Positions 256 through 59,571 of a stretch of DNA of 64,000 nucleotides are shown piece by piece. The notes beneath the pieces are model-generated. The model was not told the origin of the DNA. It searched no databases and saw only the letters and a list, made by a program, of their open reading frames with translations. The stretch spans positions 372,001 to 436,000 of the forward strand of contig JAGI01000002.1 of the NCBI GenBank assembly GCA_000526575.1, read 5' to 3'. Every line of letters begins with the position of its first letter. Within the stretch, counting starts at the first letter, position 1. This DNA is from Clostridium sp. 12(A). Lineage in GTDB: Bacteria; Bacillota; Clostridia; Lachnospirales; Lachnospiraceae. Both the position numbers and the translations under genes were made by a program.

Positions 256-1851
256 TCAAATAGTACCTTTATTCAAGCCACAGGATTTTTGCATTGCTTC
301 TGACCAAGGCATCAGTTCTTCCAGGATACTATCGGGCTCATTTTTGTAGTCCAGCATCTTAGTCATAACTGTTTCCAGATAAAGACGGATGTTTAATCCA
401 TTTGCTTTGGCTGTTTCTGCAAGCGTGTAAACAATTGCACTTGCTTTGGCACCTTTTACAGTGTCATGAAAGAGGAAGTTTTTTCTTCCCATAACATATG
501 ATTTCACGGCTCTTTCAGCTGCGTTATTACTAATGGAGCATCTTCCATCAAGGAGGTAATTCTCCATATACGATTTTTGGTTTTGGGCATAGTTAATTGC
601 CTTGGCAAGCTTTGATCCGCCAAGGGCATTTATCCCATTCACCCACTTCCAGAATGCATCCAGTACAGGTCGCTCCAGTTCAAGACGCTTTTTCTGTCGC
701 TCTTCTGGTTCTAAGTCTTTCAGTTCTTTCTCTATCTGAAAGAGTTGGTTGCAGTAGGAATAGCCTGTGTAGGCTTCAGATTTTTCGGAGCATGATCCCT
801 TCTTCTTGGGAATCGCTTCGAACATATATCTTCGAAGATGTGCCCAGCACCCGCATCGGGTAATGTCACTCAAACGGTTGTATCCGCTGAAGCCGTCCGT
901 ATGGACAAACCCGTGATAATCAGCAAGGAACTTTGCTGCATGATAGCCGCCCCTTGATGGTTGATACTCGTAAAGCACAATCCGGTGCTCTTCAAATGCA
1001 CCGCTGGTGTACAACCATATGTAAGACTTTGATTCTGGAGTCTTGCCATCTTCATTCAAAACCTGGCATGTCGTCTCGTCTACATGAATGACGGACTGCC
1101 TAAGAAGATACTCATGATATCTCTCATAAACGGGTTCCAGATATTCTTCTGCGCATGTATTGAACCAGCTGGCAATGGTTCCACGATTCAGCTTGACTCC
1201 CAGCTGTGCCCAATCCTGCTCCTGACGATAAAACGGAAGATAGTTCGTACACTTCTGATACATGATGTAAGAGACCGCTGTAGCAGAAGCCATACTGTGA
1301 TTGATGAGTGGCTTTGGCACAGGTGCCTTCTCAATGGTTGAATCACCATCTTCACGGCACTGTGGACATGCATAGCTATGCTGTACGTATTGGACACGTT
1401 CCACTTTTGCTGGAGTGATATGAATCTCTTCACGAACAACTTTGGAGCCGATATCTTCCATTTTAGTATTACAGTAAGGGCAGTTACGAGAATCACCTTC
1501 CAGTAAAAGCTCAATGGTCCTTATCGGTACATTTTTTGTAAGTTCATCATGCGTAGCACGGGATTTTTTCTTCTCATGCGCTGTCACATTGATCATTTCC
1601 GGTTCGTGAACGTGTTCATCAATTCCCAACTGATCGAACAAGCTGAGTTGTCCGTCAATGTAAGGTAAGTTCGATGATTTCTCACTGGAAATACCAAAGA
1701 TTTTTCGTTTCAGTTCATTAATTGTTTCCGTGAGGTTTGCAATGGTCTGGTTTAATTGTTCCATCTGATGATCTTTTGCTTCCAGCTGTTTGAGCAGATT
1801 ACTGACCAGCAGATTCATGTTAAGATCTTCGGTTTCAACAGACTTTTTCAT
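256..1851 (-). CDS. tnpC: IS66 family transposase (TnpC, DDE type)
   Basis: A 531-residue DDE transposase that cuts and joins IS66 ends. It begins with a leucine-zipper-like coiled coil (about residues 15-55), followed by a zinc-ribbon pattern (CPYC near 125, CPQC near 163). The acidic catalytic core follows: HVDET near 258, HTDGFSGYN near 320 and the NNAAERAVK glutamate motif near 450. Length is normal for the family. Two ATGs lie close together; the second (1851) is chosen because AAGGAGG is 9 nt upstream of it and only 3 nt from the first. It is the last gene of the IS operon. Confidence 0.95.
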   Translation of the reverse strand: MKKSVETEDLNMNLLVSNLLKQLEAKDHQMEQLNQTIANLTETINELKRKIFGISSEKSSNLPYIDGQLSLFDQLGIDEHVHEPEMINVTAHEKKKSRATHDELTKNVPIRTIELLLEGDSRNCPYCNTKMEDIGSKVVREEIHITPAKVERVQYVQHSYACPQCREDGDSTIEKAPVPKPLINHSMASATAVSYIMYQKCTNYLPFYRQEQDWAQLGVKLNRGTIASWFNTCAEEYLEPVYERYHEYLLRQSVIHVDETTCQVLNEDGKTPESKSYIWLYTSGAFEEHRIVLYEYQPSRGGYHAAKFLADYHGFVHTDGFSGYNRLSDITRCGCWAHLRRYMFEAIPKKKGSCSEKSEAYTGYSYCNQLFQIEKELKDLEPEERQKKRLELERPVLDAFWKWVNGINALGGSKLAKAINYAQNQKSYMENYLLDGRCSISNNAAERAVKSYVMGRKNFLFHDTVKGAKASAIVYTLAETAKANGLNIRLYLETVMTKMLDYKNEPDSILEELMPWSEAMQKSCGLNKGTI

Positions 1852-1945
1852 GACCATGTACCTCCTTGAATGATATACTTATTATACCACAAAGGAGACC
1901 GCAAAGCCAGTAAATAAGCGGTTCTGCGTGTACTTTATCAGATGC

Positions 1946-2299
1946 TTAAAAGGGCTTTTTGGCAACGGGTTTAATTGCCTTTGGCTGCTCAATAGAAAGA
2001 CCTTCCATAAGCCAACGGAATTCCTGTCTGGTCAAATTTCTAACATCTTCTGAATTACGTGGCCACTGGAAACGGCCGGAATCTAACCGTTTATAAAGTA
2101 ACACAAAACCATCTTTGTCAAAATGCAGTGCCTTCAGTCTGTCGCATCTTTTTCCGCAGAAAAGAAAAAGGGAATTACTGAAAGGATCTAACTCATAGGT
2201 ATCCCGGACAATTGCCATAAGACCGTCTATGCTACGCCTCATATCGGTGTAGCCGGCCACAAGAAATATCTTTGCCACGCCGGAGAGATCACCTAGCAC
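1946..2299 (-). CDS. tnpB: IS66 family accessory protein TnpB
   Basis: A 117-residue protein with the hallmark IS66 Orf2 pattern: YTDMRRSIDGL near the N-terminus, then LFLFCGKRCDRLKAL and DGFVLLYKRLDSGRFQWP. It is needed with TnpA for IS66 transposition, although its biochemical role is poorly defined. It overlaps tnpA by 7 bp, suggesting translational coupling. Intact, normal length. Confidence 0.94.
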   Translation of the reverse strand: MLGDLSGVAKIFLVAGYTDMRRSIDGLMAIVRDTYELDPFSNSLFLFCGKRCDRLKALHFDKDGFVLLYKRLDSGRFQWPRNSEDVRNLTRQEFRWLMEGLSIEQPKAIKPVAKKPF

Positions 2300-2658
2300 A
2301 GTTGTCGCAACGCATTTAATGTTGCTGTAATAATGGCGGCATCTGCATTGTTACTGATAGCCAAAACAAAGCCATTGTATTCCAGATGGATTGCAATCCG
2401 ATCCGTTTGTTTTTTAGGAAGAACTGCTTTTGTTTCTTGCAGTTCGTTGTAGTGAATTGGTACAACTTCTGTTTTCTCTAGAACTTTTGGAACAGAGTCA
2501 GGAATCATAGAGGCTTTCTTCCTCAGCCGCTTTATATTGTAATAAAAAGAGCTGGTAGGTATACCATTCTGACTGCACCAGGCGTAATCAGATAAGCCGC
2601 TTACGCGGCACTGCTGGATGCAATCCATCCAGTATTCATCTTTTTGAGCTTTTGTCAT
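2293..2658 (-). CDS. tnpA: IS66 family accessory protein TnpA (helix-turn-helix)
   Basis: A 121-residue protein. The N-terminal part (WMDCIQQCRVSGLSDYAWCSQNGIP) is a helix-turn-helix of the kind found in IS66 Orf1 and probably binds the IS ends. It is the first gene of the IS operon and overlaps tnpB. Intact. Confidence 0.92.
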   Translation of the reverse strand: MTKAQKDEYWMDCIQQCRVSGLSDYAWCSQNGIPTSSFYYNIKRLRKKASMIPDSVPKVLEKTEVVPIHYNELQETKAVLPKKQTDRIAIHLEYNGFVLAISNNADAAIITATLNALRQLC

Positions 2659-15327: not shown

Positions 15328-15834
15328 ATGAAGAAGACGCTTATTGTAGTAGACATGCAAAATGATTTTATTGATGGCTCTTTAGGAACTATTGAAGCAC
15401 AGTCTATCGTGAAAAAAGTAAAAGATAAGATTACGGAATATCAAAATCGTGGAGATGAAATAATTTTTACAAGAGACACTCACCTTTCTAATTATTTACA
15501 TACTAATGAAGGAAAGCATCTTCCAATTGAACATTGTATTTTTGGAGAAAAGGGTTGGTTTATTGCAGATGGATTAGAAGTTCCAAACTGTAAATATGTT
15601 GATAAATCTACGTTCGGATGGTGTTTCTGGAATAACATGAAATTCGATCAGGTAGAACTAATTGGTCTATGTACTGATATTTGCGTAGTCTCTAACGCTT
15701 TAATTCTTAAAGCGTCATTCCCTAATATTGAAATTACAGTAGATGCAAGTTGCTGTGCAGGAGCCACACCGGAAACCCATAAAGCCGCATTAGAAACCAT
15801 GAAAATGTGTCAGATTAATGTGATTGGAGAATAA
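15328..15834 (+). CDS. pncA: Nicotinamidase-like isochorismatase-family hydrolase
   Basis: 168 residues. ATG 15328 is preferred: GGAG is 4 nt upstream and the protein then begins MKKTLIVVDMQNDF as in the family. It carries the catalytic Asp in VVDMQNDF, the metal-site pattern TRDTHLSNY with HLPIEHC, and the nucleophile Cys in CTDICVVSNA. Nicotinamidases convert nicotinamide to nicotinate. It is the first of four tightly packed NAD genes, which supports that substrate, but other isochorismatase-like amidases cannot be excluded. Confidence 0.75.
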   Translation: MKKTLIVVDMQNDFIDGSLGTIEAQSIVKKVKDKITEYQNRGDEIIFTRDTHLSNYLHTNEGKHLPIEHCIFGEKGWFIADGLEVPNCKYVDKSTFGWCFWNNMKFDQVELIGLCTDICVVSNALILKASFPNIEITVDASCCAGATPETHKAALETMKMCQINVIGE

Positions 15835-15835
15835 C

Positions 15836-16642
15836 ATGATAAAAATAGAAAGCTGCATTGTAGATGTTAAGAAGTTTCCAGATGGGACATTACTGTTCAA
15901 GGAGGATATTCCAATTGATTTTCGGGATTATAGGGAGGCAACTCTTGAGTGGCTTTTTGAAAACAACGAAGAATTGATTGTCCTTATTTATCTTGTAAAG
16001 CATCTAAAATCACATGGCCTGAATAGTTTATACCTTAAGATGCCATATATTCCTAATGCTAGGCAGGATAGGGTAAAAAATACAGAAGATGTATTTACAC
16101 TAAAATACTTTGTAGAGATTATTAATTATCTGGATTTTGATTCTGTAACTGTTCTTGATCCTCATTCAAACGTAAGCGAAGCTTTAATTAATAATATTAT
16201 TGTCAACTCACCAGAAAAATTAATCTCTAAAGTAATTTCAAAAATAGGTGAAGATAATTTAACAATGTTCTATCCTGACGAGGGAGCTATGAAAAGATAT
16301 TCAACATTGTTTGATATACCTTATGCTTTTGGTATTAAGAAGCGAGATTGGGAAACAGGTAAAATCAATGGATTAGACGTATCTGGAATGTTGGAGTTTA
16401 TAAAAGGAAGAAAAGTTTTAATTGTAGATGATATTTCAAGTCGTGGAGGTACTTTCTATTACAGTGCAAAGAAACTAAAAGAATTAGGCGCAAAAGAAGT
16501 CTACTTGTATGTATCTCATTGCGAAAATACTATTCTTGAAGGAGATGTATTAACTAGTGGCTTGATTGAGAAAGTATATACAACAAATAGCATTTTTACA
16601 GAAAATCATGAAAAGATAGAGGTAATGAATTATGAACAATAA
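15836..16642 (+). CDS. PRPP-synthetase-like enzyme (possible ADPR-PP synthetase)
   Basis: 268 residues, shorter than bacterial Prs (about 315). ATG 15836 is chosen (GGAG 7 nt upstream). Visible Prs features: YIPNARQDR near 78, DPHSN near 106 and the pyrophosphate loop VLIVDDISSRGGT near 195. The usual ribose-phosphate loop DTGGT reads SRGGT here, a clear divergence. In phages with the NARP1 pathway, a Prs-like enzyme (Adps) turns ADP-ribose into ADP-ribose pyrophosphate for the NAMPT-like partner. The overlap with a NAMPT-like gene fits this, but ordinary PRPP synthesis is also possible. Confidence 0.82.
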   Translation: MIKIESCIVDVKKFPDGTLLFKEDIPIDFRDYREATLEWLFENNEELIVLIYLVKHLKSHGLNSLYLKMPYIPNARQDRVKNTEDVFTLKYFVEIINYLDFDSVTVLDPHSNVSEALINNIIVNSPEKLISKVISKIGEDNLTMFYPDEGAMKRYSTLFDIPYAFGIKKRDWETGKINGLDVSGMLEFIKGRKVLIVDDISSRGGTFYYSAKKLKELGAKEVYLYVSHCENTILEGDVLTSGLIEKVYTTNSIFTENHEKIEVMNYEQ

Positions 16643-18104
16643 AATCAACCCTATGTTATTGATAGATTTCTATAAGGCAGTTCATAGTGATATGATTAAC
16701 CCCAAGATGACCAAATCAGTGTCATATTATACTCCAAGAATGAGCAGAGTAGATAGGTGGGATAAAGTAGTAATGTTTGGACTGCAAATGTTTTGCAAAA
16801 CATGGCTTGTTGATTATTTTAATGATAATTTCTTCTATCTAAACAGGGAAGAAGTTATATCTGAATATGAAAGAGTATTGGACGCTTCTCTCGGTAAAGG
16901 AATTTACGATTCAATTAAAATTAGAGAGATACATAAGTTAGGGTATTTACCTATCGAAATTGTTGCTTTACCAGAAGGAACATTGGTGCCAATTCATGTT
17001 CCAATGTTCGGAATAACTAATACTCATCCGGGCTTTGCATGGCTTCCACAAGCCTTAGAGAGCTTGATTTCAGCTGAGATGTGGTATCCGCAAATTACTG
17101 CTACTGTTGGCAAGACGTACCGAGATATTGTCAATAAGTATTATAGTCTGACTTGTGATGATAATATTCCAAGGGCAAAAGCATTGGGAGCATTTGATTT
17201 TAGAGGTGATATGTGTGTAGATGCTGCATTAAAAGCTGGTGCAGGTTGGTGCATGTCATTCTTAAATACGGCTACAGTTCCTGTCATTCCATATTTAGAG
17301 GATATGTTTAATTGCGATTGCACGAGTGAACCTGTCGCATTTGGGTCAGTTAGTACAGAACATTTTGTGATGTGTAGTAACTATGCGATTGACGGTGATG
17401 AAATTACGTTCCTAAAGCGGTTACTAACAGAGTTGTATCCACATACTAGTTTTTCTTGTGTTCTTGATAGTTATGATTACTGGAATGTGATAGATAATAT
17501 ACTTCCACAATTATATGATGAAATTATGGATCATGATGGTTGTATGATGATGCGCGGAGATTCTGGTGATTGTGTTGATGTAGTTACAAAAACGGTATTT
17601 AAACTTTGGAATCTGTTTGGAGGGACTTTAAACAAAAAAGGATATAAAGTGCTTGATCCTCATGTCAAAGCAATTTATGGGGATAGCATTACGATTCAGA
17701 GGTGCGAAGAAATATATAAGATTCTTATGGAGAATGGATTTGCTTGTAGCAATGTGGTTTTAGGAGTAGGATCTTTCTCTATGCACTGCATTGAAGAAAA
17801 TAATATATTAAAACCTTTTACAAGAGACACGTTTAGTTCATGTATTAAAGCTTGTTATGCAGAGGTAGACGGTAAGTGCTATCCAGTGTTTAAAGACCCG
17901 AAAGATGGCGGATTTAAAAAAAGTCAAAAAGGAATATGCCATGTACATTTAAATGAAGATGGAGAATTAGTGTATAAGGATGAATATACAACTGAAAGTA
18001 TCCCAGAAGGTAATTTATTGCAGACAGTCTTTAAAGATGGCGAACTTATTAAAGAGTATTCACTTAAAGAAATTCGAGATATTTTGAATGGAGGAAAATT
18101 TTAA
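16632..18104 (+). CDS. NAMPT-like transferase (NadV, or Namat of a NARP1 pathway)
   Basis: 490 residues, full NAMPT length. Matches run throughout: NPMLLIDFYKAVHSDM at the start, FDFRGDMCVDAALKAGAG near 190, MMRGDSGDCVDVVTK near 301 (the PDSG-type loop), KAIYGDSIT near 345, and the end block VLGVGSFSMHCIEEN through VFKDPKDGG. NAMPT joins nicotinamide to PRPP to give NMN. The phage enzyme Namat looks the same but uses ADP-ribose pyrophosphate and makes NAD+ directly. It overlaps the Prs-like gene by 11 bp and abuts nadE (TAATG), so all are co-translated. Confidence 0.88.
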   Translation: MNNKINPMLLIDFYKAVHSDMINPKMTKSVSYYTPRMSRVDRWDKVVMFGLQMFCKTWLVDYFNDNFFYLNREEVISEYERVLDASLGKGIYDSIKIREIHKLGYLPIEIVALPEGTLVPIHVPMFGITNTHPGFAWLPQALESLISAEMWYPQITATVGKTYRDIVNKYYSLTCDDNIPRAKALGAFDFRGDMCVDAALKAGAGWCMSFLNTATVPVIPYLEDMFNCDCTSEPVAFGSVSTEHFVMCSNYAIDGDEITFLKRLLTELYPHTSFSCVLDSYDYWNVIDNILPQLYDEIMDHDGCMMMRGDSGDCVDVVTKTVFKLWNLFGGTLNKKGYKVLDPHVKAIYGDSITIQRCEEIYKILMENGFACSNVVLGVGSFSMHCIEENNILKPFTRDTFSSCIKACYAEVDGKCYPVFKDPKDGGFKKSQKGICHVHLNEDGELVYKDEYTTESIPEGNLLQTVFKDGELIKEYSLKEIRDILNGGKF

Positions 18105-18841
18105 TGTTTGATGCAAAGAAAATAAAAAATGAGATAGTAGAGTGGATTAAAAAGTTCTTTGAAAAGAATGGCAATGGCTGTAACGCTGTTGTTGGAATTT
18201 CAGGCGGTAAAGATTCAAGTGTCGTTGCTGCATTGTGCGTAGAAGCCCTTGGAAAAGAACGGGTTATTGGAGTATTAATGCCAAACGGGGAGCAGAATGA
18301 TATTGATATGGCAAAACTTCTAGTGAATACTTTAGATATTAAATACCACATTGTAAATATCCACGATGCAGTTAAGGCCATAAAATATGAAGTGAAATCT
18401 AGTCTTAATGATCATTGGAGCATACAGTCATCAACGAACTTACCAGCTAGAATTAGAATGGCTACATTATACGCAGTATCTCAAACCGTTAATGGACGTG
18501 TAGCTAATACTTGCAATCTTTCTGAAGATTGGGTCGGTTACGCAACCCGTTATGGAGATGCGGCTGGAGACTTTAGCCCATTGTCTGGATTAACAGTTTC
18601 TGAAGTAAAAGCTATTGGATATGAACTTGGTCTTCCAACTAGCCTTATTGAAAAAACTCCTAGTGATGGTCTTTGTGGTAAATCAGATGAAGATAATCTT
18701 GGTTTTACTTACGATGCTTTAGACAGATATATTCGTACAGGGGAAATTGACGATCAAGATGTAAAGGTCAGAATTGACAATATGCATTTAAAAAATAAGT
18801 TTAAATTGGAGCTTATGCCAAGTTATAAAATTATCAGTTAA
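18104..18841 (+). CDS. nadE: NH3-dependent NAD+ synthetase
   Basis: 245 residues, matching the short ammonia-dependent NadE without a glutaminase domain. PP-loop SGGKDSSV near 34-41 binds ATP; TCNLSEDWVGYATRYGDAAGDFSP near residues 145-168 (given as motif positions) and EKTPSDGLCGKSDED contain the deamido-NAD and metal contacts. It makes NAD+ from nicotinate adenine dinucleotide. Its start overlaps the NAMPT-like stop. It would complete a route from the nicotinamidase product, with the host supplying the missing NaMN steps. Confidence 0.92.
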   Translation: MFDAKKIKNEIVEWIKKFFEKNGNGCNAVVGISGGKDSSVVAALCVEALGKERVIGVLMPNGEQNDIDMAKLLVNTLDIKYHIVNIHDAVKAIKYEVKSSLNDHWSIQSSTNLPARIRMATLYAVSQTVNGRVANTCNLSEDWVGYATRYGDAAGDFSPLSGLTVSEVKAIGYELGLPTSLIEKTPSDGLCGKSDEDNLGFTYDALDRYIRTGEIDDQDVKVRIDNMHLKNKFKLELMPSYKIIS

Positions 18842-18887
18842 AACACGTCTTTCAATGGAGAATATATAAATGGAGGTGAAATGAATT

Positions 18888-19613
18888 ATGATTCAAGACG
18901 TATTAAAACTTATTGAGAAAAAAGAGAAATTGCAGATTCTGTTGGAGACTGTTGGTATTGAATTAAAAGAGGCTGCCAATAATTTAGACCTTGATGCTTT
19001 AGAAAATTGCGACTATGAAACAATGAAGGGCTTGTATAATCAAGTTCAATATTTAATTGATGATGAGAGGAGGAAAAAATTATCTAACATAATTGTTACC
19101 AAGAAGATTTTGAAGTATCCACAATTATTAAAGCCTACATATTATCCAGAAATTGACACACTAAACATTTCCAGCGATGAGAAATTAAGGCTGGACAGGG
19201 CAGCCTATATGAATACCAGATTTTACATGAATGAGGATAATCTCGATAAGCTCGAATATAAGTTGTCCATTCAAGATTTAGAACTTTTGAAGTCTATTGG
19301 TATTGTAGAAAAGAAATACAGTTTCAAATGTAAGGTTTGTGGAGATCCGTGTATCACAATTTCTGAAAGTGATTTGGAGAAGTATAAAAGAGTGTTCCAA
19401 TTGACTGAGATAGGTAGCTCTTTAACAGATGAGCAAGATAAAGAACTTGATGAATTATACGAGAATGGGGTTTATTGCATTTCGGTATGCTGTATGGATT
19501 GTGATTCTGAGTGCGAAATTACAAATCAGAGAGATTTAGATGATTATAAAGAGCATATAAAAGAAATTTACAAGGTAGAGAAAAATCCAGATTTGACATA
19601 TGAAAAACTGTAA
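18888..19613 (+). CDS. Hypothetical zinc-cluster protein
   Basis: 241 residues behind a strong GGAGGTG site. Residues 1-60 are helical. Two cysteine groups follow, CKVCGDPC near 145 and CCMDCDSEC near 204, which could form a zinc ribbon. The rest is acidic. Family not recognised. It lies between the NAD genes and the ABC transporter. The 188-base gap after it holds only short frames (one of 29 codons at 19652) that I do not support. Confidence 0.6.
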   Translation: MIQDVLKLIEKKEKLQILLETVGIELKEAANNLDLDALENCDYETMKGLYNQVQYLIDDERRKKLSNIIVTKKILKYPQLLKPTYYPEIDTLNISSDEKLRLDRAAYMNTRFYMNEDNLDKLEYKLSIQDLELLKSIGIVEKKYSFKCKVCGDPCITISESDLEKYKRVFQLTEIGSSLTDEQDKELDELYENGVYCISVCCMDCDSECEITNQRDLDDYKEHIKEIYKVEKNPDLTYEKL

Positions 19614-19801
19614 AGAAAAAGGAGAATGAATCAATATGGAGAAAAGCTCTGATGATTAACGACAATATTCAGCTAATGAAAAACATTAAGCAGATATCTT
19701 CTAGTAGTAGTAAAGCTTCTAAGAGATCAACAACAGTCTAACGTGAAATGTTTCTCTCTAGAGGGATAAAACACTAAAAAAATTGAGGAGAAAGTAGAAA
19801 A

Positions 19802-20548
19802 TTGAGAATTATTTTTAAAAGAATAGCACTTCTAATTAGCATATTGTTTATCTGGCATATTTGTTCAAAATATATGAATCCAATATTTATACCGAAACCT
19901 CGATCAGTGTTTAATAATCTGATTCTGTTGATGAAAAACGGAGAAATATTTATTGCAATAAGATATTCATTTTTACGAGTAACAATAGCAGCAACAATGT
20001 CGGCTCTCGTTGCAATTCCTATAGCTCTTCTTGTATTTAATGTAAAAGTTGCAAAGGATATCCTAGATCCAATAATTAATATAATGAGATACTTGCCTGT
20101 TACGGCATTTTATCCATTGCTGATTATGTGGTTTGGAATTGATGAAATGATGAAAATAGTCTTTTTGTTTCTTGCAACTTTTGTGTATATGATGCCATCA
20201 GTAATTTTATGTTTAAATGAAATCAACTCTGATTTAATTGATACGGGTATTACTATAGGGATGAACAAGTTTCAGACTATTTATAAAATTCAGTTACCAG
20301 CTTCATTGCCCAGCATACTAAATAGCTTCATTATGATGTATGGAATTGGATTCACTTACATAGCTGTAGCGGAAACTGTAAATGCAAAGTATGGACTTGG
20401 TTGGATCATTCAGCAGTCCTCTTCGAGAGGAAGAACAGACATGGTGTTTATGTCAATAATTGTAATCATGGCAATAAGTGTTCTATTTGATTCTATATCG
20501 AAGAGACTTGTTAAAATGATTTTTAAATGGAGGTATTTAGGTGATTGA
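19802..20548 (+). CDS. ABC transporter permease, SsuC/TauC type
   Basis: 248 residues, TTG start behind GAGGAG. About six membrane helices. The permease coupling loop is near 155-185 (EINSDLIDTGITIGMNKF...IYKIQLPASLPSILN), the EAA-type motif that docks to the ATPase. It belongs to the BPD_transp_1 family of sulfonate/taurine/NMT1 importers. It overlaps the ATPase gene by 8 bp. Probable partners are the ATPase next to it and the substrate-binding/OmpA fusion at 22448. Confidence 0.88.
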   Translation: MRIIFKRIALLISILFIWHICSKYMNPIFIPKPRSVFNNLILLMKNGEIFIAIRYSFLRVTIAATMSALVAIPIALLVFNVKVAKDILDPIINIMRYLPVTAFYPLLIMWFGIDEMMKIVFLFLATFVYMMPSVILCLNEINSDLIDTGITIGMNKFQTIYKIQLPASLPSILNSFIMMYGIGFTYIAVAETVNAKYGLGWIIQQSSSRGRTDMVFMSIIVIMAISVLFDSISKRLVKMIFKWRYLGD

Positions 20549-21152
20549 ATTAAATAATGTTTATACCGGATATAGCAGAGACAAGCCATTACTAAAAAGA
20601 TTCAATTATCGGTTTGATAACAAAGTGTATGGAATTTTGGGTGAATCTGGTTGTGGTAAAACGACCTTACTTAGAACAATCTCTGGGTTAATGAAGCCTA
20701 TAAGTGGAGAACTAGTAATTGATGGAGTATCTTGTAGCAAAGCATACAAAAACAAGGTATACATGATTCATCAAAATTATACTTCCTTTGATTGGTTAAC
20801 ATGTTTGGATAATGTGTTAATCGCAAAAAAGGTAAAAGGGAAAGTTTTGGAGAAAGATATATTAAGAGCAAAAGAAATGATTAAACAGGTTGGATTATCT
20901 GATAATGAGACAAAGTATCCCAAACAATTATCAGGTGGTCAAAGACAACGGTTGGCTCTTGCTAGAACTTTATTTATGAAACCAGAAATTATATTGATGG
21001 ATGAGCCTTTATCGGCTCTGGATCAGAAAACAAGAACAGAAATGCAGAATTTGATTATGAGAACACACAGAGAGACAAACAACACAATAATTATGGTCAC
21101 TCATAGCAAAGAGGAAGCTAAAAATGTATGTGACGTGATTATAAATTTATGA
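20541..21152 (+). CDS. ABC transporter ATP-binding protein
   Basis: 203 residues. Walker A GESGCGKTT near 33, Q-loop HQNYTSFDW, signature LSGGQRQR near 133, Walker B IILMDEPLSALD near 151 and H-switch VTHSKEEA. It is slightly short, lacking the C-terminal extension of SsuB/TauB. GTG start behind GGAGG. It energises import with the overlapping permease. Confidence 0.93.
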   Translation: MIELNNVYTGYSRDKPLLKRFNYRFDNKVYGILGESGCGKTTLLRTISGLMKPISGELVIDGVSCSKAYKNKVYMIHQNYTSFDWLTCLDNVLIAKKVKGKVLEKDILRAKEMIKQVGLSDNETKYPKQLSGGQRQRLALARTLFMKPEIILMDEPLSALDQKTRTEMQNLIMRTHRETNNTIIMVTHSKEEAKNVCDVIINL

Positions 21153-21165
21153 AGGAGGATATTAA

Positions 21166-21699
21166 ATGAGCTTGTTAAAAAAGTTGTTTATGGAGGAGAT
21201 CCCACAGGAAGAGGAGTATTGTGAATCAGGTGTCGATACATATGAAATCTCTACGGTGCCTGATGTTGAACTTGAAGAAGTAAACACAGATACCTTGATC
21301 GAGGATATCTATTTGCAGAATGAGTTGTTTGATAGAAAGAAATCTATTTTTAAGGTAGAAGAGTTAATTAATTCACTTCCTAAAGAAATGGTGACTGAAA
21401 CAAAGAAAGCAAGTGTGCTAGCGATCCTGGGAAGCTTTGGTCTTACAACAACCGATGTAGGGCTGGACGGAGAAAATAGAGTCAGTGTTTTGAATGGAGT
21501 TTTATCCAAAATCATATCAGATGGCAAGGGTGAAATCAATGATAATGAGACTGAAATTGAAACCCACAAAAAAGCAATTGCCAATTTAGAAAAAATGATA
21601 TCGGATAAACAGAATGAGATGAAAGTGTCAGAAACAAACATAAATGCAGAAATTGCAAGAATTTCGGAATTAATTAAATTTATTGGAGGAGCAGAGTAA
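21166..21699 (+). CDS. Coiled-coil protein of the transporter operon
   Basis: 177 residues, acidic, no membrane segment. Residues 1-60 look disordered (EEIPQEEEYCESGVD). A small helical domain is near 65-115, and the last 60 residues (ETEIETHKKAIANLEKM...) are a coiled coil. Strong GGAGG site. It sits between the ATPase and a membrane-anchored coiled-coil protein whose start overlaps its stop codon. Function unknown. Confidence 0.65.
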   Translation: MSLLKKLFMEEIPQEEEYCESGVDTYEISTVPDVELEEVNTDTLIEDIYLQNELFDRKKSIFKVEELINSLPKEMVTETKKASVLAILGSFGLTTTDVGLDGENRVSVLNGVLSKIISDGKGEINDNETEIETHKKAIANLEKMISDKQNEMKVSETNINAEIARISELIKFIGGAE

Positions 21700-22436
21700 T
21701 GGAGTTAACGAAACTAATTATTATTATTGCGGCTGCATTGTTTGTTCTTATACTCATTTTGTTTCCAGAGGCAAGAGTACTATTTAAGGGAATAACTAGA
21801 TTATTTATAAAGGATATGGCAACTACGCCAGAGGGGGCAGAAGCTATTTATGGTGAAAAAATTGATGAAGCCCAGGAGGCATACAATAAGTCAGATAATG
21901 CATTAAAAGTTGCATCTGGTAAATTAAGTAATGCCAAAAGAGATATGGAGGGCTTAAAGAATAAACTTGTTAAAATAGAATCTGAATGTGAAGCTCTTGT
22001 AAAATCAAGTAAGAATGAGATGGCACAGTTAAAATCAGAAGAAAGGGAAGATGTTTTATCTGACATTAAGAGATATACAGAACTCATTAAAGCGTATGAG
22101 GTTGCAACCAATACTGCAAAAGAAGCACAAGAAATGTGCGAGAGAAATCTTCGCAAGTTAAAGCGTGAAAGTAAAGAAGTAGTAGAGAATATGAAAGTTA
22201 AAAAACAGCTAAAAGAAGTCTATGACGATATGGATGAACTTAAAAACGTTTCCGCAACCGACAAGCTTCTTAGCTCCGTTAGAGATAAGAACAAGGATTT
22301 AGATGCTATTGTTGAAGGATCAAAGGTAGTCCATGACAATAAGATGTCTACTAAATTACAAAAAGCCGAGAAAGAAGCAAAGAAGCTACAAAGTGATGAT
22401 TACTTAGAAAGTTTAAAGAAAAAATATAATAAATAA
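21699..22436 (+). CDS. Membrane-anchored coiled-coil protein, PspA-like in form
   Basis: 245 residues. An N-terminal membrane helix (residues 4-22) is followed by about 200 residues of almost continuous Lys/Glu-rich coiled coil. The layout recalls PspA/IM30-type membrane-stress proteins, but PspA has no membrane anchor, so the relationship is uncertain. ATG overlaps the previous stop (TAATG). Membrane-bound partner of the ABC/OmpA system by position. Confidence 0.6.
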   Translation: MELTKLIIIIAAALFVLILILFPEARVLFKGITRLFIKDMATTPEGAEAIYGEKIDEAQEAYNKSDNALKVASGKLSNAKRDMEGLKNKLVKIESECEALVKSSKNEMAQLKSEEREDVLSDIKRYTELIKAYEVATNTAKEAQEMCERNLRKLKRESKEVVENMKVKKQLKEVYDDMDELKNVSATDKLLSSVRDKNKDLDAIVEGSKVVHDNKMSTKLQKAEKEAKKLQSDDYLESLKKKYNK

Positions 22437-22447
22437 GGAGAATTTAT

Positions 22448-24055
22448 ATGAGTGCAAGACGTTTTAGACCAACAAAGGCAGCAAAGTTTTTGTTACTTGT
22501 GGTAGTAATGGCATTAATCGGTGGAGGGATTTTCTTTGGGATTAATAGCGGATTAATTAAAACTTCGTCAGGTAAAGACAATATTGCGAGCATAGAGAAA
22601 GTAAAAAAAGAATCGGTTAATGTATCGTCTGATAAGGACGGCAATGTTATCAATACAGAAAAAAATGATAATAAGACAATCAACTTATCTCTTGATGAGT
22701 GGATCGGTTGGAAAAGTATTATTGATGCTAATGGTGGACTTTCTACTAAAGATGGATCTATCTACAGTAAACTTGGTATCAATGTAAATATCAGCATTAT
22801 TAATGACGCAACACAATCTAGCAACGCAATGGTTAGTGGAAAAATTGACGCTGCCGGTTACACCATTAACAGAACAGCATTTTTATCCAAGAAGTTTTCT
22901 GACGCTGGGATCAATGTAATTATGCCTTATGTAACTAATTTCTCAAATGGCGGAGATGGTATCATTGCAAAATCTGAGATCAAATCAGTTGGAGATTTGG
23001 TTAATGCAAAGATTGGAGTTCCACAGTTTTCAGAAGCTCATTCTCTTGTAGTATGGTTTGTTAATCAGTCTGATTTATCCGAGTCTGACAAGAGTAAGAT
23101 TATAAGCAATTTGATTTTATTTGAAACACCAGATGAAGCAGCTAAAGCATTTTTTGCGGGGCAGATTGATGTAGCAGCTACATGGGAACCGTATTTAACT
23201 CAGGCACAAAATATGTCCGGTGCACACATCTTATTCAGTACAGCTAGTTCTTCGAGTTTAATTATGGATGGAATTTTGTTCAATAAAGCATTCGCTGAGA
23301 AATATCCAGATGTGGTTTCAACTTTCATTGATGGTGCTTTACAGGCTTCAAAATTATACGACACAGACACGACAACTATTAAAACTGTTATGCCCATGTT
23401 TTCTACTGCATCTGATCAGGATATTTTAGATAACTGCATGTCTGCAAAACTAACTACATATGCAGATAATATGAATCTTCTTAATGGTACTGCTAAAACA
23501 ATCTATTCAGATATGTGCAATGTTTGGGAATCAATTGGAGAAACAGTAAATAAGGAACTGTTTGATACGGTTTTTGATAATAAGTATATCAGCAAATTAG
23601 CTGACAAGTACGATTCAGGTGACATCACATCAACAGATGCCAAGGTTGTTGTTACTGAGGAGAATAAGCAAGAGGTACTTGATACAGTTGCATTATTACA
23701 GAAATCTACCTCTGTTAACTTTATAATCAATACTGCAAAATTTATAGATTCTGCTGAAGCCACAAAGACATTGAATGATTTTATCGAGATTTCAAAAGTA
23801 CTTGATGGAACAATTATTGAGATTGCTGGAAATACAGATCCTAATCCATCATCTGATCCAGAAGATGTAGCAAATAAGATGTTGTCCCAGCAGAGAGCAG
23901 AAACTGTTAAACAGTATTTCGTTCTAAATGGTATTTCGGCGGATAGGATCATTGTCGTTGGAAACGGATCAAGTAAACCAGTCGTGGAAAACGATAGTGA
24001 AGAACATAGGGCTATGAACAGAAGAACAGATATCTCGTTCAAAAGTATCGAGTAG
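22448..24055 (+). CDS. Substrate-binding protein fused to OmpA-like domain
   Basis: 535 residues. A single N-terminal membrane helix (15-35) anchors the protein outside. Residues 75-330 are an NMT1/SsuA-type periplasmic binding protein (LDEWIGWKSIIDANGG, GKIDAAGYTINRT, AATWEPYL). Residues 415-535 are an OmpA/MotB peptidoglycan-binding domain (EIAGNTDPNP, SQQRAETVKQYFVLNGI, RIIVVGNGSSKP, NRRTDISF). The fusion would tie a solute receptor to the cell wall. It is last in the operon with the permease and ATPase. The ligand is unknown; an NAD precursor is possible given the neighbours but unproven. Confidence 0.85.
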   Translation: MSARRFRPTKAAKFLLLVVVMALIGGGIFFGINSGLIKTSSGKDNIASIEKVKKESVNVSSDKDGNVINTEKNDNKTINLSLDEWIGWKSIIDANGGLSTKDGSIYSKLGINVNISIINDATQSSNAMVSGKIDAAGYTINRTAFLSKKFSDAGINVIMPYVTNFSNGGDGIIAKSEIKSVGDLVNAKIGVPQFSEAHSLVVWFVNQSDLSESDKSKIISNLILFETPDEAAKAFFAGQIDVAATWEPYLTQAQNMSGAHILFSTASSSSLIMDGILFNKAFAEKYPDVVSTFIDGALQASKLYDTDTTTIKTVMPMFSTASDQDILDNCMSAKLTTYADNMNLLNGTAKTIYSDMCNVWESIGETVNKELFDTVFDNKYISKLADKYDSGDITSTDAKVVVTEENKQEVLDTVALLQKSTSVNFIINTAKFIDSAEATKTLNDFIEISKVLDGTIIEIAGNTDPNPSSDPEDVANKMLSQQRAETVKQYFVLNGISADRIIVVGNGSSKPVVENDSEEHRAMNRRTDISFKSIE

Positions 24056-34845: not shown

Positions 34846-35835
34846 TTACTGGAAATTAGTACAATCTATATGTTTTCTGGAGGCATAAATAAGAGTGTTA
34901 ACGCCCTCAAACTTTTTAGGCTCACACTGCCTGGCAGCTATTACAAGGCCCCTAAGGCGCTTTAATGAATCAATATCTTCTGGTTTTCTTTTATAGTAAT
35001 TTAACTCATTAATTACCTTTAAGCTAAGATGATTGGGGATTCGTATTCTGCCTTCAGGTGTGATAATAGCACCGGTAACGGACTTAGGAGAACTACTTGT
35101 GTAATATTTTGTCTTGTTGCGTGATATTTTGTAATTATATTTTGAAATAATATTATAAATTATTTCTTTTTGTTTATGAGAAATTCTATTACATGAAGAA
35201 AATGTCATGTCATCGACGTATACAGACATGGTTATTCCATTGCAATCGCAGAAATATTGTATTTCATCAAACATGTTGTGATTGACAAGGTAGGATAATA
35301 TCTGGCTAGTAGGAGCTCCAGAAATTAGGTGGTTTGATGTTTTAATTCCTTTAAATTGTAGAAAGTGCTCAACAGACTGAATATCTTTTATTTTACATAG
35401 TGTTAAATCGATGGTTGTGAAGTTAGTGAAAATTTTGGCAACGTCTGGTGTCATCATCAAATCATTATTAAAAAAGTCAAAGACAGTTTCACGGGTAATG
35501 CATGGGAAAAATGATGACAAATCTATTTTAAAAAGATATTGATTATCTTTATGTATTTTCGCATTATCAATATATGATTTACCCTTTATACCAGAGAATA
35601 TATTATAAGGAACCTCAATTTTACTAAGCTCCTTTTTAATAATTCTTTGAATAAGTTTCAGAGAATACGAAGGAGCTTCAATTAAACGAGGTTTCGGTTT
35701 AGTCGCAATATACGGACTGATATTTTGAGCTATATAGTTTTGTTTTAAATAGTCTTTAGTGGGGATTTTAAGCAGTTTAATAACATAGGACTTTGATGAC
35801 TGTCTATAAAGATTTGGGTTTGTTATATATATCAT
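34846..35835 (-). CDS. Retron-type reverse transcriptase
   Basis: 329 residues; ATG 35835 behind AAGAGTG. Palm motif A FKIDLSSFF near 106, motif C SVYVDDMTF near 207 (YVDD). The two retron hallmarks are both present: NAKIH (NAxxH, region X) near 94 and SVTGAII (VTG, region Y) near 251. Fingers start with KPRLIEAP near 48. Length is normal for retron RTs. It would copy part of a neighbouring structured RNA into branched msDNA. It sits in a minus-strand cassette with its own promoter and a small membrane protein. No other maturase or group II intron part is seen. Confidence 0.9.
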   Translation of the reverse strand: MIYITNPNLYRQSSKSYVIKLLKIPTKDYLKQNYIAQNISPYIATKPKPRLIEAPSYSLKLIQRIIKKELSKIEVPYNIFSGIKGKSYIDNAKIHKDNQYLFKIDLSSFFPCITRETVFDFFNNDLMMTPDVAKIFTNFTTIDLTLCKIKDIQSVEHFLQFKGIKTSNHLISGAPTSQILSYLVNHNMFDEIQYFCDCNGITMSVYVDDMTFSSCNRISHKQKEIIYNIISKYNYKISRNKTKYYTSSSPKSVTGAIITPEGRIRIPNHLSLKVINELNYYKRKPEDIDSLKRLRGLVIAARQCEPKKFEGVNTLIYASRKHIDCTNFQ

Positions 35836-35867
35836 AAATTTCACTCTTTTCAAATAAATGCTGGTGA

Positions 35868-36062
35868 TTAGCAATCACTTGCCATGCTGATTAATAAACG
35901 GATAAATTCAGCACGAACAACGGGATTACAAATAGACGCAACCAGTGCAAAAGAAATTAAAGCTACAATGATACAGGTTAAAGACTTTCCATCAAGCGTA
36001 ATGTTGCTAAAGATATTGATATTTACAGTGACATTACTAGGTTCATCCGTTTTCCTTTTCAT
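35868..36062 (-). CDS. Small single-helix membrane protein, likely retron effector
   Basis: 64 residues; ATG 36062 follows a perfect AAGGAGGTGA. A polar N-terminus rich in Asn (NVTVNINIFSNITLDGK) is followed by one membrane helix (SLTCIIVALISFALVASIC) and a short amphipathic end. It lies 32 nt before the RT gene and in the same transcript. Known retron Ec48 uses a small membrane effector (two helices), so a membrane-disrupting effector is a reasonable guess. Not homologous to anything I recognise. Confidence 0.65.
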   Translation of the reverse strand: MKRKTDEPSNVTVNINIFSNITLDGKSLTCIIVALISFALVASICNPVVRAEFIRLLISMASDC

Positions 36063-37003: not shown

Positions 37004-38941
37004 TTGGATAGAGTTAATAGAATTAAGGAACTAATTAATCAGCTTAACATGGCATCTATTGCTTATTATAAAATTGATAGGCCAATCATATCAGATAAAC
37101 AATATGATGATTTGTATGATGAATTGTACAGTCTCGAAAAAGAGACTGGTTACATATTGACTGGATCTCCAACACAGAAAGTTCAAGGAGATGTTGCTGA
37201 TTATCTTGAAAAGGTTAATCATAAATACCCAATGCTTTCTTCCAATAAGACAAAGGATCTAGATATTGTTCTTAAATTCATTGGCGGTAAAATTGTAGCT
37301 CAGTCATGGAAACTTGATGGACTGACAGTGGTTGCCGAATATAGAAGGGGACTACTTTACAGAGCAGTCACTAGAGGGAATGGTATGGTAGGAGAAGATG
37401 TTACCCATACATTCAAGCACTGTGTAAATCTTCCAATCAGACTAAGAAAACCCGTAGATATAACTTTCCGTGGTGAGTGCGTGATTCCATGGGATACATT
37501 TAAGAGAATTAATTCTGAATTAGAGGAACCTTATTCGCACCCACGTAATCTTGCAGCCGGGACACTTAGGCAACTTGACGCTAATATTGCTATAGAGCGA
37601 AAATTAGAATATTACGTGTTTGATGTCGTGGACGGTTTTGATTGTGGAAATCTCATAGGGGACTACGCTTATGCTTCAGGTCTGGACATGCCGGTTGTAG
37701 AACATTGTATAGTTAGAGTTTTGGAAGAAGATTTCGATAAATTTAATCCAGAGAATTTCAGACTTCCCGTCGATGGTCTGATTTACCGCTATGATGATTC
37801 TGAATATGGAAAATCACTTGGAACCACATCACATCACCCACTTAATATGTTGGCTTTAAAATGGCAGGATCAGTTATATGAGACGACATTGACAGACATT
37901 GAGTGGAACACGTCTAAGACAGGCTTAATTAATCCCGTTGCTATTTTTGAACCCGTAGACCTTGATGGAGCTATTACCACAAGAGCAACATTACACAACG
38001 TATCTTATATAGAAGATTTGCAACTTGGAATCGGTGATTCTATTATGGTGTATCGGGCAAATATGGTAATTCCCAAAGTTCATGAAAATTTAACTAAGAG
38101 TAATACATGGAAACTTCCTGATGAATGCCCCTGTTGTGGAGGAAATGTAGAAATACACAATGAAAATGGAAGTAAGACACTCCATTGTTGTAATGATGAT
38201 TGCCAGGCAAAATTATTATCAAGACTTACTCATTATGTTAGTAAGAACGCTTTAAATATTGATGGATTTTCAGAGGCCACGATAGAAAAGTTTATGGAGT
38301 TAGGTTGGTTGTTAAGATTGTCTGATATTTATAATCTTCATAACCACAAAAATGAGATGATGGTTCTTGATGGCTTTGGAAAGAAATCGACAGAGAAATT
38401 ATTAGCTGCCATTGAAAAATCCAAGACAACAACTCTGGAAAGATATTTATATGGACTTTCTATTCCACTGATCGGCAGAACGGCCAGTAAGACTATTAGC
38501 AAATATTTTAAGGGCGATTATTCAAAATTTATTGAAGCGTTGGAAGACTACTTTGATTTTAGTCAGTTAGAGGATTTCGGGTATACCATGAACAAAAGTA
38601 TTTGGGATTGGTACAGAAAATACAGTGAAACAGAAGATGCTTACATTCCTATTTTGTTGGATTTTGATATTCCAGAGTTAGAATCTGGCGCTAACGGTAA
38701 GGCTGATTTGACTGGAAATGTGTTTGTGATTACTGGAAGCTTGGAGCGTTATTCAAATAGAAATGAGCTTGTTGCAGAGATTGAAAGTCTAGGTGGTAAG
38801 GTATCAGGAAGCGTGAGTTCCAAGACAAATTATCTTATTAATAATGACAGTTTGAGTAACTCATCAAAGAATAAAAAGGCAAAAGAACTGGATGTGCCTA
38901 TTATTATAGAAGAAGAGTTTCTACGATTAATAGAAAAATAA
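37004..38941 (+). CDS. ligA: NAD+-dependent DNA ligase
   Basis: 645 residues, near full LigA length. Ia domain at the start (YYKIDRPIISDKQYDDLYDEL spans about 24-44), adenylation site SWKLDGLTV near 108 (KxDG), RGNGMVGEDVTHT, GECVIPW, and LALKWQDQ near 286. Then an OB fold, zinc finger (CPCCGG, CCNDDC), HhH and a C-terminal BRCT (FVITGSLERYSNR). TTG start behind GGGAGG. It seals nicks and consumes NAD+, a link to the NAD genes at 15-19 kb. Confidence 0.95.
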   Translation: MDRVNRIKELINQLNMASIAYYKIDRPIISDKQYDDLYDELYSLEKETGYILTGSPTQKVQGDVADYLEKVNHKYPMLSSNKTKDLDIVLKFIGGKIVAQSWKLDGLTVVAEYRRGLLYRAVTRGNGMVGEDVTHTFKHCVNLPIRLRKPVDITFRGECVIPWDTFKRINSELEEPYSHPRNLAAGTLRQLDANIAIERKLEYYVFDVVDGFDCGNLIGDYAYASGLDMPVVEHCIVRVLEEDFDKFNPENFRLPVDGLIYRYDDSEYGKSLGTTSHHPLNMLALKWQDQLYETTLTDIEWNTSKTGLINPVAIFEPVDLDGAITTRATLHNVSYIEDLQLGIGDSIMVYRANMVIPKVHENLTKSNTWKLPDECPCCGGNVEIHNENGSKTLHCCNDDCQAKLLSRLTHYVSKNALNIDGFSEATIEKFMELGWLLRLSDIYNLHNHKNEMMVLDGFGKKSTEKLLAAIEKSKTTTLERYLYGLSIPLIGRTASKTISKYFKGDYSKFIEALEDYFDFSQLEDFGYTMNKSIWDWYRKYSETEDAYIPILLDFDIPELESGANGKADLTGNVFVITGSLERYSNRNELVAEIESLGGKVSGSVSSKTNYLINNDSLSNSSKNKKAKELDVPIIIEEEFLRLIEK

Positions 38942-58428: not shown

Positions 58429-59571
58429 ATGGGAAAATCGATAAAAGGGAAAGAGCTTGGTAAAGGAATTTCTCAAAGAAAAGATGGTTTGTATCAAGCA
58501 AGATTTACAAATAGATTTGGTAAAAGACAGACTATTTATGGAAAAACATATACCGATATAACCCAAAAACTACGTTCAGAGCAGTATGAGGATGAAAAAC
58601 AAATCAACGTTATAAAAAAAGATGTTACGCTCGATGACTGGTATCATATATGGTTGGCGACTTGCAAGAAGAATTGCAGAAATTCGTCAAAAGAGGCTTA
58701 TGCTACTCACTATAAACGGATAAAAGAGGATTTAGGGTGGAGAAAATTAACGTCACTAAATCTGATCAATATGCAAGAAGCCATAAATAAACTAAATTCG
58801 GATAATGAACGTAGCAATACAAAGAAGATATTGGTTGACATGCTTAATAAAGCTTTAGATAGTGATTTAATTACCAAGAATGTAGCGAAACAAATTAATA
58901 CTGTAGTAACTAAAGATGTAAAAAGGGAAAAACGAGTGTTAGCAAGAGACGAAGTGGAAAAATTTATGTCTATGGCAGATGGACGATTTTATTATAATTT
59001 GTTTGTACTAGCTCTTGAAACAGGTATGCGTATTGGTGAGTTATGTGGCCTGCAATGGTCTGATGTTGACTTAAAGAACAAAACTATCAATGTACAACAT
59101 ACGCTCTGTTATTTTAGTAAAGATGGGAAATATTTATTTGAGATGCACGACACCAAGACCAGCAATGGTAAAAGAATTATTCCACTAACAACAAAAGCTG
59201 TAATGGCATTAAAGAAGCAGAAAACTCAAAAACAAGAAATAATCTTTGATAAAAAAGAAGCATTAGAGGGTTATGAAAATTTAGTGTTTGTTACAAAAAA
59301 TAATCAACCCACTCAGCTTTTTCTTATCAAAGAGAGTTTGGGTTTGATTATAAAGAATATTCAGAAAGAAGATGTTCACTTTAAACATTTTACACCGCAT
59401 ACATTCAGGCATACATTTGCTACTAGAGCTATTGAGAATGGAATGCAGCCAAAAACACTACAACACATACTTGGACATGGTACGCTGAAGATGACAATGG
59501 ACTTATACTGTCATGTGACGGAGGATACTCTATTTGCAGAGATGGAGAAAATGGAACAAAAACGTGCGTAA
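58429..59571 (+). CDS. int: Site-specific tyrosine integrase
   Basis: 380 residues behind AAAGGAGG. N-terminal arm-binding part (KGISQRKDGLYQARFTNR), core-binding domain near 65-155, catalytic domain with R201 (GMRIGELCGL), HTFRHTF near 324, LGHGTLKMT and Y360 (MDLYCH). It is the intact integrase of the element and lies at its right end. The site seems to be just upstream of pyrE. Confidence 0.95.
   Translation: MGKSIKGKELGKGISQRKDGLYQARFTNRFGKRQTIYGKTYTDITQKLRSEQYEDEKQINVIKKDVTLDDWYHIWLATCKKNCRNSSKEAYATHYKRIKEDLGWRKLTSLNLINMQEAINKLNSDNERSNTKKILVDMLNKALDSDLITKNVAKQINTVVTKDVKREKRVLARDEVEKFMSMADGRFYYNLFVLALETGMRIGELCGLQWSDVDLKNKTINVQHTLCYFSKDGKYLFEMHDTKTSNGKRIIPLTTKAVMALKKQKTQKQEIIFDKKEALEGYENLVFVTKNNQPTQLFLIKESLGLIIKNIQKEDVHFKHFTPHTFRHTFATRAIENGMQPKTLQHILGHGTLKMTMDLYCHVTEDTLFAEMEKMEQKRA

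Follow-up and report, generated by a model that had tools for sequence, protein, structure and literature searches.

A prophage NAD operon in Clostridium sp. 12(A) proposed to be a deamidating relative of the NARP1 system

Results

The four-gene set

We analysed a 64,000-nucleotide stretch of the Clostridium sp. 12(A) genome (the window; C2:372001-436000 of a 4.6 Mb genome) in which four NAD genes lie together within a large prophage. The genes are open frames on a single strand, each overlapping or abutting its neighbour, as shown below along with the reactions predicted for their products (ADPR, ADP-ribose; ADPR-PP, ADPR-pyrophosphate; NAM, nicotinamide; NaAD, nicotinic acid adenine dinucleotide; aa, amino acids).

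15328..15834, + strand: nicotinamidase (PncA-like), 168 aa, PF00857 E 2.1e-24; predicted NAM to nicotinate
15836..16642, + strand: Adps-like ADP-ribose pyrophosphokinase, 268 aa, phrog_619 1.4e-71; predicted ADPR + ATP to ADPR-PP
16632..18104, + strand: Namat-like transferase, 490 aa, named from structure, fold and tree; predicted nicotinate + ADPR-PP to NaAD
18104..18841, + strand: NadE, ammonia-type NAD+ synthetase, 245 aa, PF02540 8.3e-56; predicted NaAD to NAD+

The family matches and coordinates agree with a preliminary description of this DNA, made from the sequence alone, which had listed overlapping or abutting genes for nicotinamidase, Prs-like, NAMPT-like and NadE proteins. Judged by eye, each gene begins with an ATG that has a Shine-Dalgarno-like sequence ahead of it: the nicotinamidase at 15328 (AAGGAG), the Adps-like gene at 15836 (GGAG), one base past the nicotinamidase stop, the Namat-like gene at 16632 (GAGGT), overlapping the Adps-like gene by 11 bases, and nadE at 18104 (GGAGG), with an overlap of one base. 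An alternative TTG start at 15824 for the Adps-like gene seems less likely. No promoter is claimed, because shuffled sequence had on average more sigma-70-like sites (25.6) than the surroundings of the operon (18). The same-strand arrangement was seen in 92/92 distinct related loci holding all four genes, and is therefore not due to chance.

The nearest solved structures to the nicotinamidase were 1ilw and 1im5, titled pyrazinamidase/nicotinamidase, and the nearest to NadE was 2e18; NadE scored 189.8 bits for TIGR00552, where the cut-off is 63.65. The Adps-like protein matched Pribosyltran (PF00156, 6.3e-8) and NCBIfam TIGR01251 (2.4e-32; 112.1 bits, cut-off 113), and the Namat-like protein matched NAPRTase (PF04095, 9.3e-19) plus NAMPT_N (PF18127, 2.4e-6).

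The transferase and its two binding sites

Adps and Namat of Bacillus phage SPbetaL1, which form the NAD+ reconstitution system NARP1, are reported to have been tested as enzymes (PMC12774641), and residues are numbered here as in the SPbetaL1 proteins unless stated otherwise. The solved structures nearest in sequence to the window Namat-like protein were those of SPbetaL1 Namat (9w5x/9w5w, 371 bits); NAMPT chains, human ones included, scored about 150 bits or less. An AlphaFold2 model built from 26 aligned sequences (pLDDT, the model's confidence score, 91.7) gave the same Namat chains as top Foldseek hits (E 2.4e-53), followed by HdNadV. The tree was computed with the specificity columns removed and included as outsiders NAMPTs that are linked to a nicotinamide mononucleotide (NMN) adenylyltransferase (NMNAT); these, from phages X1, BcepSauron and Marchewka, were separated from every Adps-linked transferase at 100. 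On sequence and fold, then, the NAMPT-like protein groups with Namat and not with NMNAT-linked NAMPT. A scan of ten window proteins (15328-24055) found no NMN adenylyltransferase, and the NadM-Nudix protein of phage X1, used as query, had no match in the window; its matches elsewhere were mostly to the Nudix half.

Four places in the gene bear upon the acceptor and donor sites:

16746..16748, + strand: Arg39 codon, equivalent to clamp Arg40 of SPbetaL1 Namat, kept
17271..17273, + strand: Ala214 codon, equivalent to Asp215 of SPbetaL1 Namat (amide-binding Asp lost)
17352..17354, + strand: Ser241 codon, equivalent to Ala242 of SPbetaL1 Namat, covarying with the Asp/Ala switch
17790..17816, + strand: nine-residue insertion in the adenine clamp (GSFSMHC-IEENNILKP-FTRD), in a predicted beta hairpin

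At the acceptor site, Asp215 of SPbetaL1 Namat is described as hydrogen-bonding NAM, and the D215A protein as yielding 8.1-fold less NAD+ from NAM (PMC12774641). At the donor site, the signature given for the Namat clamp is GSX(Phi)X(Phi)X(Phi)TRD (PMC12774641); the window reads GSFSMHCIEENNILKPFTRD and departs from this signature, the ends and Arg40 being kept and the insertion lying within. Equivalents of Arg40, aromatic 392 and TRD are retained, as are the conserved contacts to the NMN half.

Residue 215 and the neighbouring genes

Relatives were gathered from IMG/VR (viral_contigs), GTDB genomes (genome_contigs) and phage records, and their flanks were searched with hidden Markov models built from the window, SPbetaL1, Phass-1 and MT835544 proteins; individual loci are given L numbers. 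Window copies (L004-L006) and the window's own and relatives' genomes (L182-L209) were excluded beforehand. From 268 loci, 259 had a transferase match, and removal of L039 (short) and 31 duplicates left 227 distinct transferases. The genome_contigs were the best 80 of 381 relatives, hence those nearest to the window, and viral_contigs came from two profile scans (best 80 of 129 and best 80 of at least 298). Flanks were about 6-7 kb at the median, often ending at contig edges.

Position 215 was Asp or Glu in 114 of the 227 transferases (108 Asp, 6 Glu; the Asp/Glu class), and their flanks held no nicotinamidase and a single NadE, that of phage X1, which has an NMNAT + NAMPT set. The position was Ala or Ser in the other 113 (112 Ala, 1 Ser; the Ala/Ser class), 112 of which had at least one of nicotinamidase and NadE: both genes in 92, nicotinamidase alone in 13, NadE alone in 7 and neither in 1. 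Position 242 was Ala throughout the Asp/Glu class (114/114) and Ser throughout the Ala/Ser class (113/113). All 79 distinct genome_contigs fell in the Ala/Ser class; among its distinct viral_contigs, NadE was present in 31/31 and nicotinamidase in 29/31. A flank of less than 2 kb on a side occurred in 26/114 Asp/Glu and 19/113 Ala/Ser loci, so that short contigs do not cause the split. Gene order varied, P-A-N-E (P, PncA-like; A, Adps-like; N, Namat-like; E, NadE) being commonest in full quartets and A-N-macro-E-P, with a macrodomain-like gene, occurring in L003, L033 and L036; the quartet has thus been kept through rearrangement. Eight extra stretches, chosen for their transferase match and not for their neighbours (a weak partial match, G598, was left out, and L316 and L318 look like the counted L096 and L135), were 8/8 Ala/Ser, with nicotinamidase in 7 and NadE in 5. 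The PncA residues which we take to be catalytic (D, K, C) and metal-binding (D, H, H) were conserved in 104-105 of the 105 relatives from the Ala/Ser class.

Within that class, the clamp residue Arg40 was present in 111/113 proteins and an aromatic residue 392 (Phe or Tyr) in 112/113. In a wider set, Ser stood at 215 in 2 of 122 Ala/Ser sequences, and also in L311. An origin of the Ala215 class on two separate occasions was considered and is not supported; a 60-row tree holding 18 Ala/Ser transferases as one clade scored better and was not rejected (p-AU, the approximately unbiased test, 0.93). On these alignments the Ala/Ser transferases probably form one clade.

Glu replaced Asp215 in six distinct Namat-like proteins (L090, L245, L251, L265, L280 and L293), one of them from Prevotella phage Lak-B2.

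The Adps-like protein

The window Adps-like protein shares 42% identity with its SPbetaL1 counterpart. Sixty rows went into the tree: 23 from Ala/Ser loci, 21 other Adps, and 16 out of 24 Prs that related genomes yielded. The 16 Prs lay outside, at a Shimodaira-Hasegawa-like approximate likelihood ratio (SH-aLRT) of 99, and there was a clade of 32 rows, the 23 from Ala/Ser loci plus 9 others including SPbetaL1, at SH-aLRT 98. By this tree the Prs-like protein belongs with Adps and not with Prs. Ordinary Prs plus NadV, the placement against which the preliminary description had set its proposal, is ruled out by the two enzyme trees, which put the proteins with Adps and Namat.

The active-site loop is also altered, and was correctly read in that description as SRGGT:

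16427..16453, + strand: altered pyrophosphokinase loop DDISSRGGT

Of 110 Adps of the Ala/Ser class, 96 have Ser in the loop (DDxxSxGG[TS]), 10 have Ala and 1 has Cys at this place, and 3 were outside the pattern; among 44 of the other class 22 were outside the pattern, and 19 of the 22 that matched had Ser. The four Prs compared in this analysis had DTAG/DTGG forms. Of the 24 Prs from related genomes, 5 had a DDMIDT[AG]G[TS] loop, and the remaining 19, which are longer, lay outside the search pattern.

Relatives without the clamp insertion

At about 50% identity to the window protein, the transferases of L312 and L313 form a lineage sister to the window clade (SH-aLRT 99). They combine Ala215/Ser242 with a complete, insertion-free clamp, GSYTYQYNTRD, and have an Adps neighbour with the loop DDLCSKGGT; judged from these residues, the donor side would be as in the tested Namat and the acceptor side changed. 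The order in L313 is a putative Nudix-regulator-like gene, adps, nicotinamidase, namat, and the nicotinamidase is absent from L312.

The record of the gut phage Phass-1 (OQ749652) annotates nicotinamidase, ribose-phosphate pyrophosphokinase and nicotinamide phosphoribosyltransferase side by side, so that this arrangement of genes was already documented, though not interpreted as here. The Phass-1 transferase fell outside the Ala/Ser clade in one quick tree, and we are unsure of its position; as sole query it had no match in viral_contigs. No Namat-like match was found near NadE in the stretches examined of cyanophage S-SSM7, Pelagibacter phage HTVC008M, Atu_ph07 and ME3.

Search for NadD

Queries with the NadD proteins of phage G and of the host had no match in the flanks of the 113 Ala/Ser genes; as a positive control, both queries found the phage G gene, the host one at 4.7e-21. 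In Bacillus phage G (L172:11654-17373) a nicotinamidase-family hydrolase, nicotinate phosphoribosyltransferase (NAPRT), NadD and NadE are annotated together, and this phage apparently carries a complete Preiss-Handler pathway of the phosphoribosyl pyrophosphate (PRPP) type.

Bacterial loci, regulators and distribution

A Nudix protein was present in the flanks of 54/79 distinct genome_contigs and 1/31 viral_contigs of the Ala/Ser class, and of 4/114 Asp/Glu loci. The five Nudix proteins checked, all from genome_contigs, each had the NrtR_WHD DNA-binding domain (5/5); NrtR of S. sobrinus is reported to be released from DNA by ADPR (PMC12735969). The host genome, searched for NrtR_WHD, had no match. 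Genes of chromosomal type are present in the flanks of L092, L111 and L147, among them those for a LacI regulator, a histidine kinase, a UvrD-like helicase, a GH8 hydrolase and a semialdehyde dehydrogenase.

Several side observations were made at these loci. The NadE of the chromosomal-type quartet L111 (8455-10422) has an added CN_hydrolase domain (glutamine-type), and is not of the ammonia type. L166:3057-5246 is a single open frame with radical SAM (HemN_C), Nudix and NrtR winged-helix domains, and L106 and L136 have matches similar in length to it. Macrodomain-like genes were found in the flanks of 11/31 viral_contigs and 2/79 genome_contigs of the Ala/Ser class and 10/114 Asp/Glu loci, in several cases between the NAD genes (e.g., L003:9285-9908, L007, L033); their product could release ADPR for Adps.

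The transferase is rare, occurring in 3/200 genomes of the family and 8/391 of the class, where the own genome is counted in both and the 8 include one weak partial match. Of 50,697 phage records, 11 had a nicotinamidase of this kind (E 1e-3), fewer than the 1935 with the transferase (E 1e-5).

The prophage and its host

Terminase, portal, tape-measure and tail-fibre genes lie to the left of the window, and the window itself has genes for helicase, primase, polymerase, RNA ligase and anaerobic ribonucleotide reductase, with an integrase at 58429-59571; we therefore regard the element as a large tailed prophage. It encodes an NAD+ ligase (37004-38941, by PHROGs), as stated in the preliminary description. 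An IMG/VR viral contig of 134,298 bases has Adps and Namat genes identical to those of the window and, if colinear with the genome, covers window -76936 to 57361. Shortly beyond the integrase is an orotate phosphoribosyltransferase-like gene (59654-60337, by eye), and this region (58429-60337) probably marks the right end of the prophage.

Downstream of the operon, 19802-24055 holds an ABC permease (SsuC/TauC-like), an ATPase, two proteins without assigned function, and a fusion of an NMT1/SsuA-like binding protein with an OmpA domain (phrog_25518); these ABC genes could be unrelated to NAD. A frame at 34846-35874 (- strand) has the look of a reverse transcriptase, with a YVDDMTFS motif read by eye, and three frames at 256-2658 (- strand), in the prophage region, resemble an IS66-type transposon.

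The host genome has its own NadD, a second NadE-family gene within a 638-aa frame, two further isochorismatase-family genes, and a weak NAPRTase-family match at C2:1775215 (30.3 bits). It had no match to ThsB_TIR or SIR2_2, the two NADase families searched for.

Discussion

The proposed route and its alternatives

We favour, at a probability of roughly 60%, the reading that the four genes make up a self-contained NARP1 relative of deamidating type, working as a serial route through nicotinate and NaAD. From the gene identities, the clades, the residue changes, the co-occurrence of the genes and the flanks in which no NadD was found, we infer the substrates, the NaAD intermediate, the direction of flux and the role as follows. 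The nicotinamidase would convert NAM arising from NAD+ breakdown to nicotinate; the Adps-like enzyme would use ADPR, the other breakdown product, with ATP to form ADPR-PP; the Namat-like enzyme, with its Asp to Ala change, would join nicotinate and ADPR-PP directly to NaAD; and NadE would amidate NaAD to NAD+. NadD would be unnecessary, since ADPR-PP already carries the AMP half. In phages the route might restore NAD+ in the course of infection or in the face of NAD+-depleting defences, and in bacteria with an NrtR-type regulator nearby it might serve as a recycling route induced by ADPR. The counter-defence role would be plausible by analogy; the host had no match to the two NADase families searched for, and related operons also lie among chromosomal-type genes, often with Nudix nearby. 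Supply of NAD+ to the prophage's own NAD+ ligase, which the preliminary description also suggested, is a possible role.

The preliminary description had instead proposed a dual route in which the nicotinamidase competes with the NAMPT-like enzyme for NAM. This part of it does not stand, as the amide-binding Asp is lost in the very class that is neighboured by nicotinamidase and NadE; a serial route fits better than competition because the loss occurs exactly where those genes adjoin. The likeness to an extended NARP1 held in so far as both enzymes were placed with Adps and Namat, with Namat at the top by sequence and by fold, and failed at Asp215 and at the clamp signature.

A number of points weigh against the serial reading. 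Chief among the doubts is the clamp insertion, which is nine residues long in 103/113 of the Ala/Ser class and longer in 9 (none in 1). The window protein also has no Tyr396 equivalent, and for both reasons its donor specificity is less sure than that of L312/L313 or Phass-1. HdNadV was the second-best solved relative, at 281 bits vs 371 for Namat. On the acceptor side, Asp219 of human NAMPT is reported to correspond to Asp203 of Xanthomonas NAMPT and to be replaced by Ser, not Ala, in nicotinate-specific NAPRTs (PMC4442680, PMC10907753); we take this comparison from those reports, because in our own profile alignment with PncB the NAPRT Ser did not come to lie opposite Asp215. Judging by their titles, 6ta0 and 6ta2 are crystal structures of human NAMPT with nicotinic acid, so that Asp does not absolutely bar nicotinate. 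Among the loci, L095 is of the Ala/Ser class without nicotinamidase and NadE (its contig starts about 950 bases upstream), L312 has Ala215 with neither pncA nor nadE in 16 kb, and a wide nucleotidyltransferase motif, unmatched by the NadD queries, occurs in 3/113 Ala/Ser flanks (L096, L110 and L155). Position 67 of Adps is Asn in 104/110 of the Ala/Ser class, where it is Tyr in 42/44 of the other class and in 4/4 Prs. Lastly, since the Ala/Ser class is probably one clade, the correlation of residue with neighbours amounts to about one evolutionary event. As a description the split is strong, and the direction of the residue change, read with the literature, adds weight beyond that single event.

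The insertion could have altered the donor site, and the host, having its own NadD, could complete a PRPP route. Hence an alternative, which we consider unlikely, is deamidated salvage of the Preiss-Handler type: the Prs-like protein would make PRPP, the NAMPT-like protein nicotinic acid mononucleotide, host NadD would convert this to NaAD, and the phage NadE would act last. It shares with the serial reading the suggestion from Ala215/Ser242 that the acceptor is nicotinate, but it sits poorly with a Prs-like protein in the Adps clade that has an SxGGT-type loop, with the near-universal retention of Arg40 and aromatic 392, with the whole clamp of L312/L313, and with the want of any NadD match beside the 113 genes, phage G with its PncB-type gene having one.

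Rather improbable, in our estimate, is an ordinary NARP1, taking NAM straight to NAD+, beside a separate nicotinamidase/NadE branch that feeds host PncB and NadD. Both core enzymes do fall with NARP1 enzymes, and the host offers NadD and the weak NAPRTase-family match; yet the amide-binding Asp is replaced in 113/113 of the class, the very change that in the tested Namat is reported to cost NAD+ output (PMC12774641), nicotinamidase occurs beside 0/114 Asp/Glu-type genes, and in such an arrangement it would take away the Namat substrate. That the set makes or processes another dinucleotide (e.g., by a different pyridine acid/amide exchange), with NAD+ not the main product, is very unlikely: isochorismatase-family and NadE-type enzymes can act on other substrates, the substrates here are predicted, and both the pyrophosphokinase and the transferase have class-specific changes, but the conserved PncA residues and a NadE score far above the family cut-off speak against it, and NrtR-type proteins close to many relatives suggest a place in NAD metabolism.

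A broader claim, to which we would give somewhat less than even odds, is that the serial reading describes a new NAD+ route of phages and bacteria, in which NAM enters via nicotinate and ADPR via ADPR-PP, the two being joined at NaAD so as to skip NadD; it would be NrtR/ADPR-induced in bacteria and used for counter-defence in phages, where NaAD is possibly resistant to NADases. The titles and abstract beginnings surveyed, which did not extend to the original NARP1 and 2008 NrtR papers, included no paper on transfer of nicotinate to ADPR-PP or on a nicotinamidase/NadE extension of NARP1. A different NARP1 extension, with an RyR-domain glycosidase, is reported (PMC13232231), and known variants of gut vitamin B3 salvage are listed (PMC6593275); phage salvage by NadV, NadM and NadR is described, with no mention of nicotinamidase or NadE in the available part of that source (PMC9503650). 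Should the serial reading hold, NAD+ metabolism would gain a direct nicotinate-to-NaAD step, and the presence of a nicotinamidase and a NAMPT relative in one operon would be explained; the residue rule (Asp/Ala at 215, Ala/Ser at 242) would predict nicotinate-using NAMPT-like genes of phages and bacteria, and the Phass-1 annotations as nicotinamide phosphoribosyltransferase and ribose-phosphate pyrophosphokinase would name the wrong substrates.

Comparison with known systems

Phage salvage by NAMPT + NMNAT, presumably the system called NARP2, is seen in Xanthomonas phage X1 (L181), BcepSauron (L296) and Marchewka (L298). It shares with the window a NAMPT-family transferase, but the neighbour is an adenylyltransferase and not Adps, Asp215 is kept, and the transferases lie outside the Adps-linked enzymes. 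The Preiss-Handler pathway, as in phage G, begins with a nicotinamidase and ends with NadE, like the window set, whose nicotinamidase has an intact active site; in place of the PncB-type NAPRT and NadD of that pathway the window has the Namat-type and Adps-type enzymes, which is the replacement that direct transfer of nicotinate to form NaAD would require. Phass-1 (L002) has nicotinamidase, Adps-like, Namat-like and NadE genes in the same order as the window, along with Ala215/Ser242; it differs in that its transferase is 33% identical and insertion-free, and in having an extra gene between transferase and NadE.

With the NARP1 of SPbetaL1 the window shares adjoining Adps-like and Namat-like genes, the clade, the fold, the NMN-half contacts, Arg40, Phe392 and TRD. 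Unlike SPbetaL1 it has Asp215 changed to Ala, Ala242 changed to Ser, the clamp insertion, and the added nicotinamidase and NadE, and its predicted acceptor and product are nicotinate and NaAD. We have not filed the window set as a member of NARP1, because of the differences at Asp215 and in the clamp signature; as far as comparison of the proteins can indicate, it would work like NARP1 without being plain NARP1.

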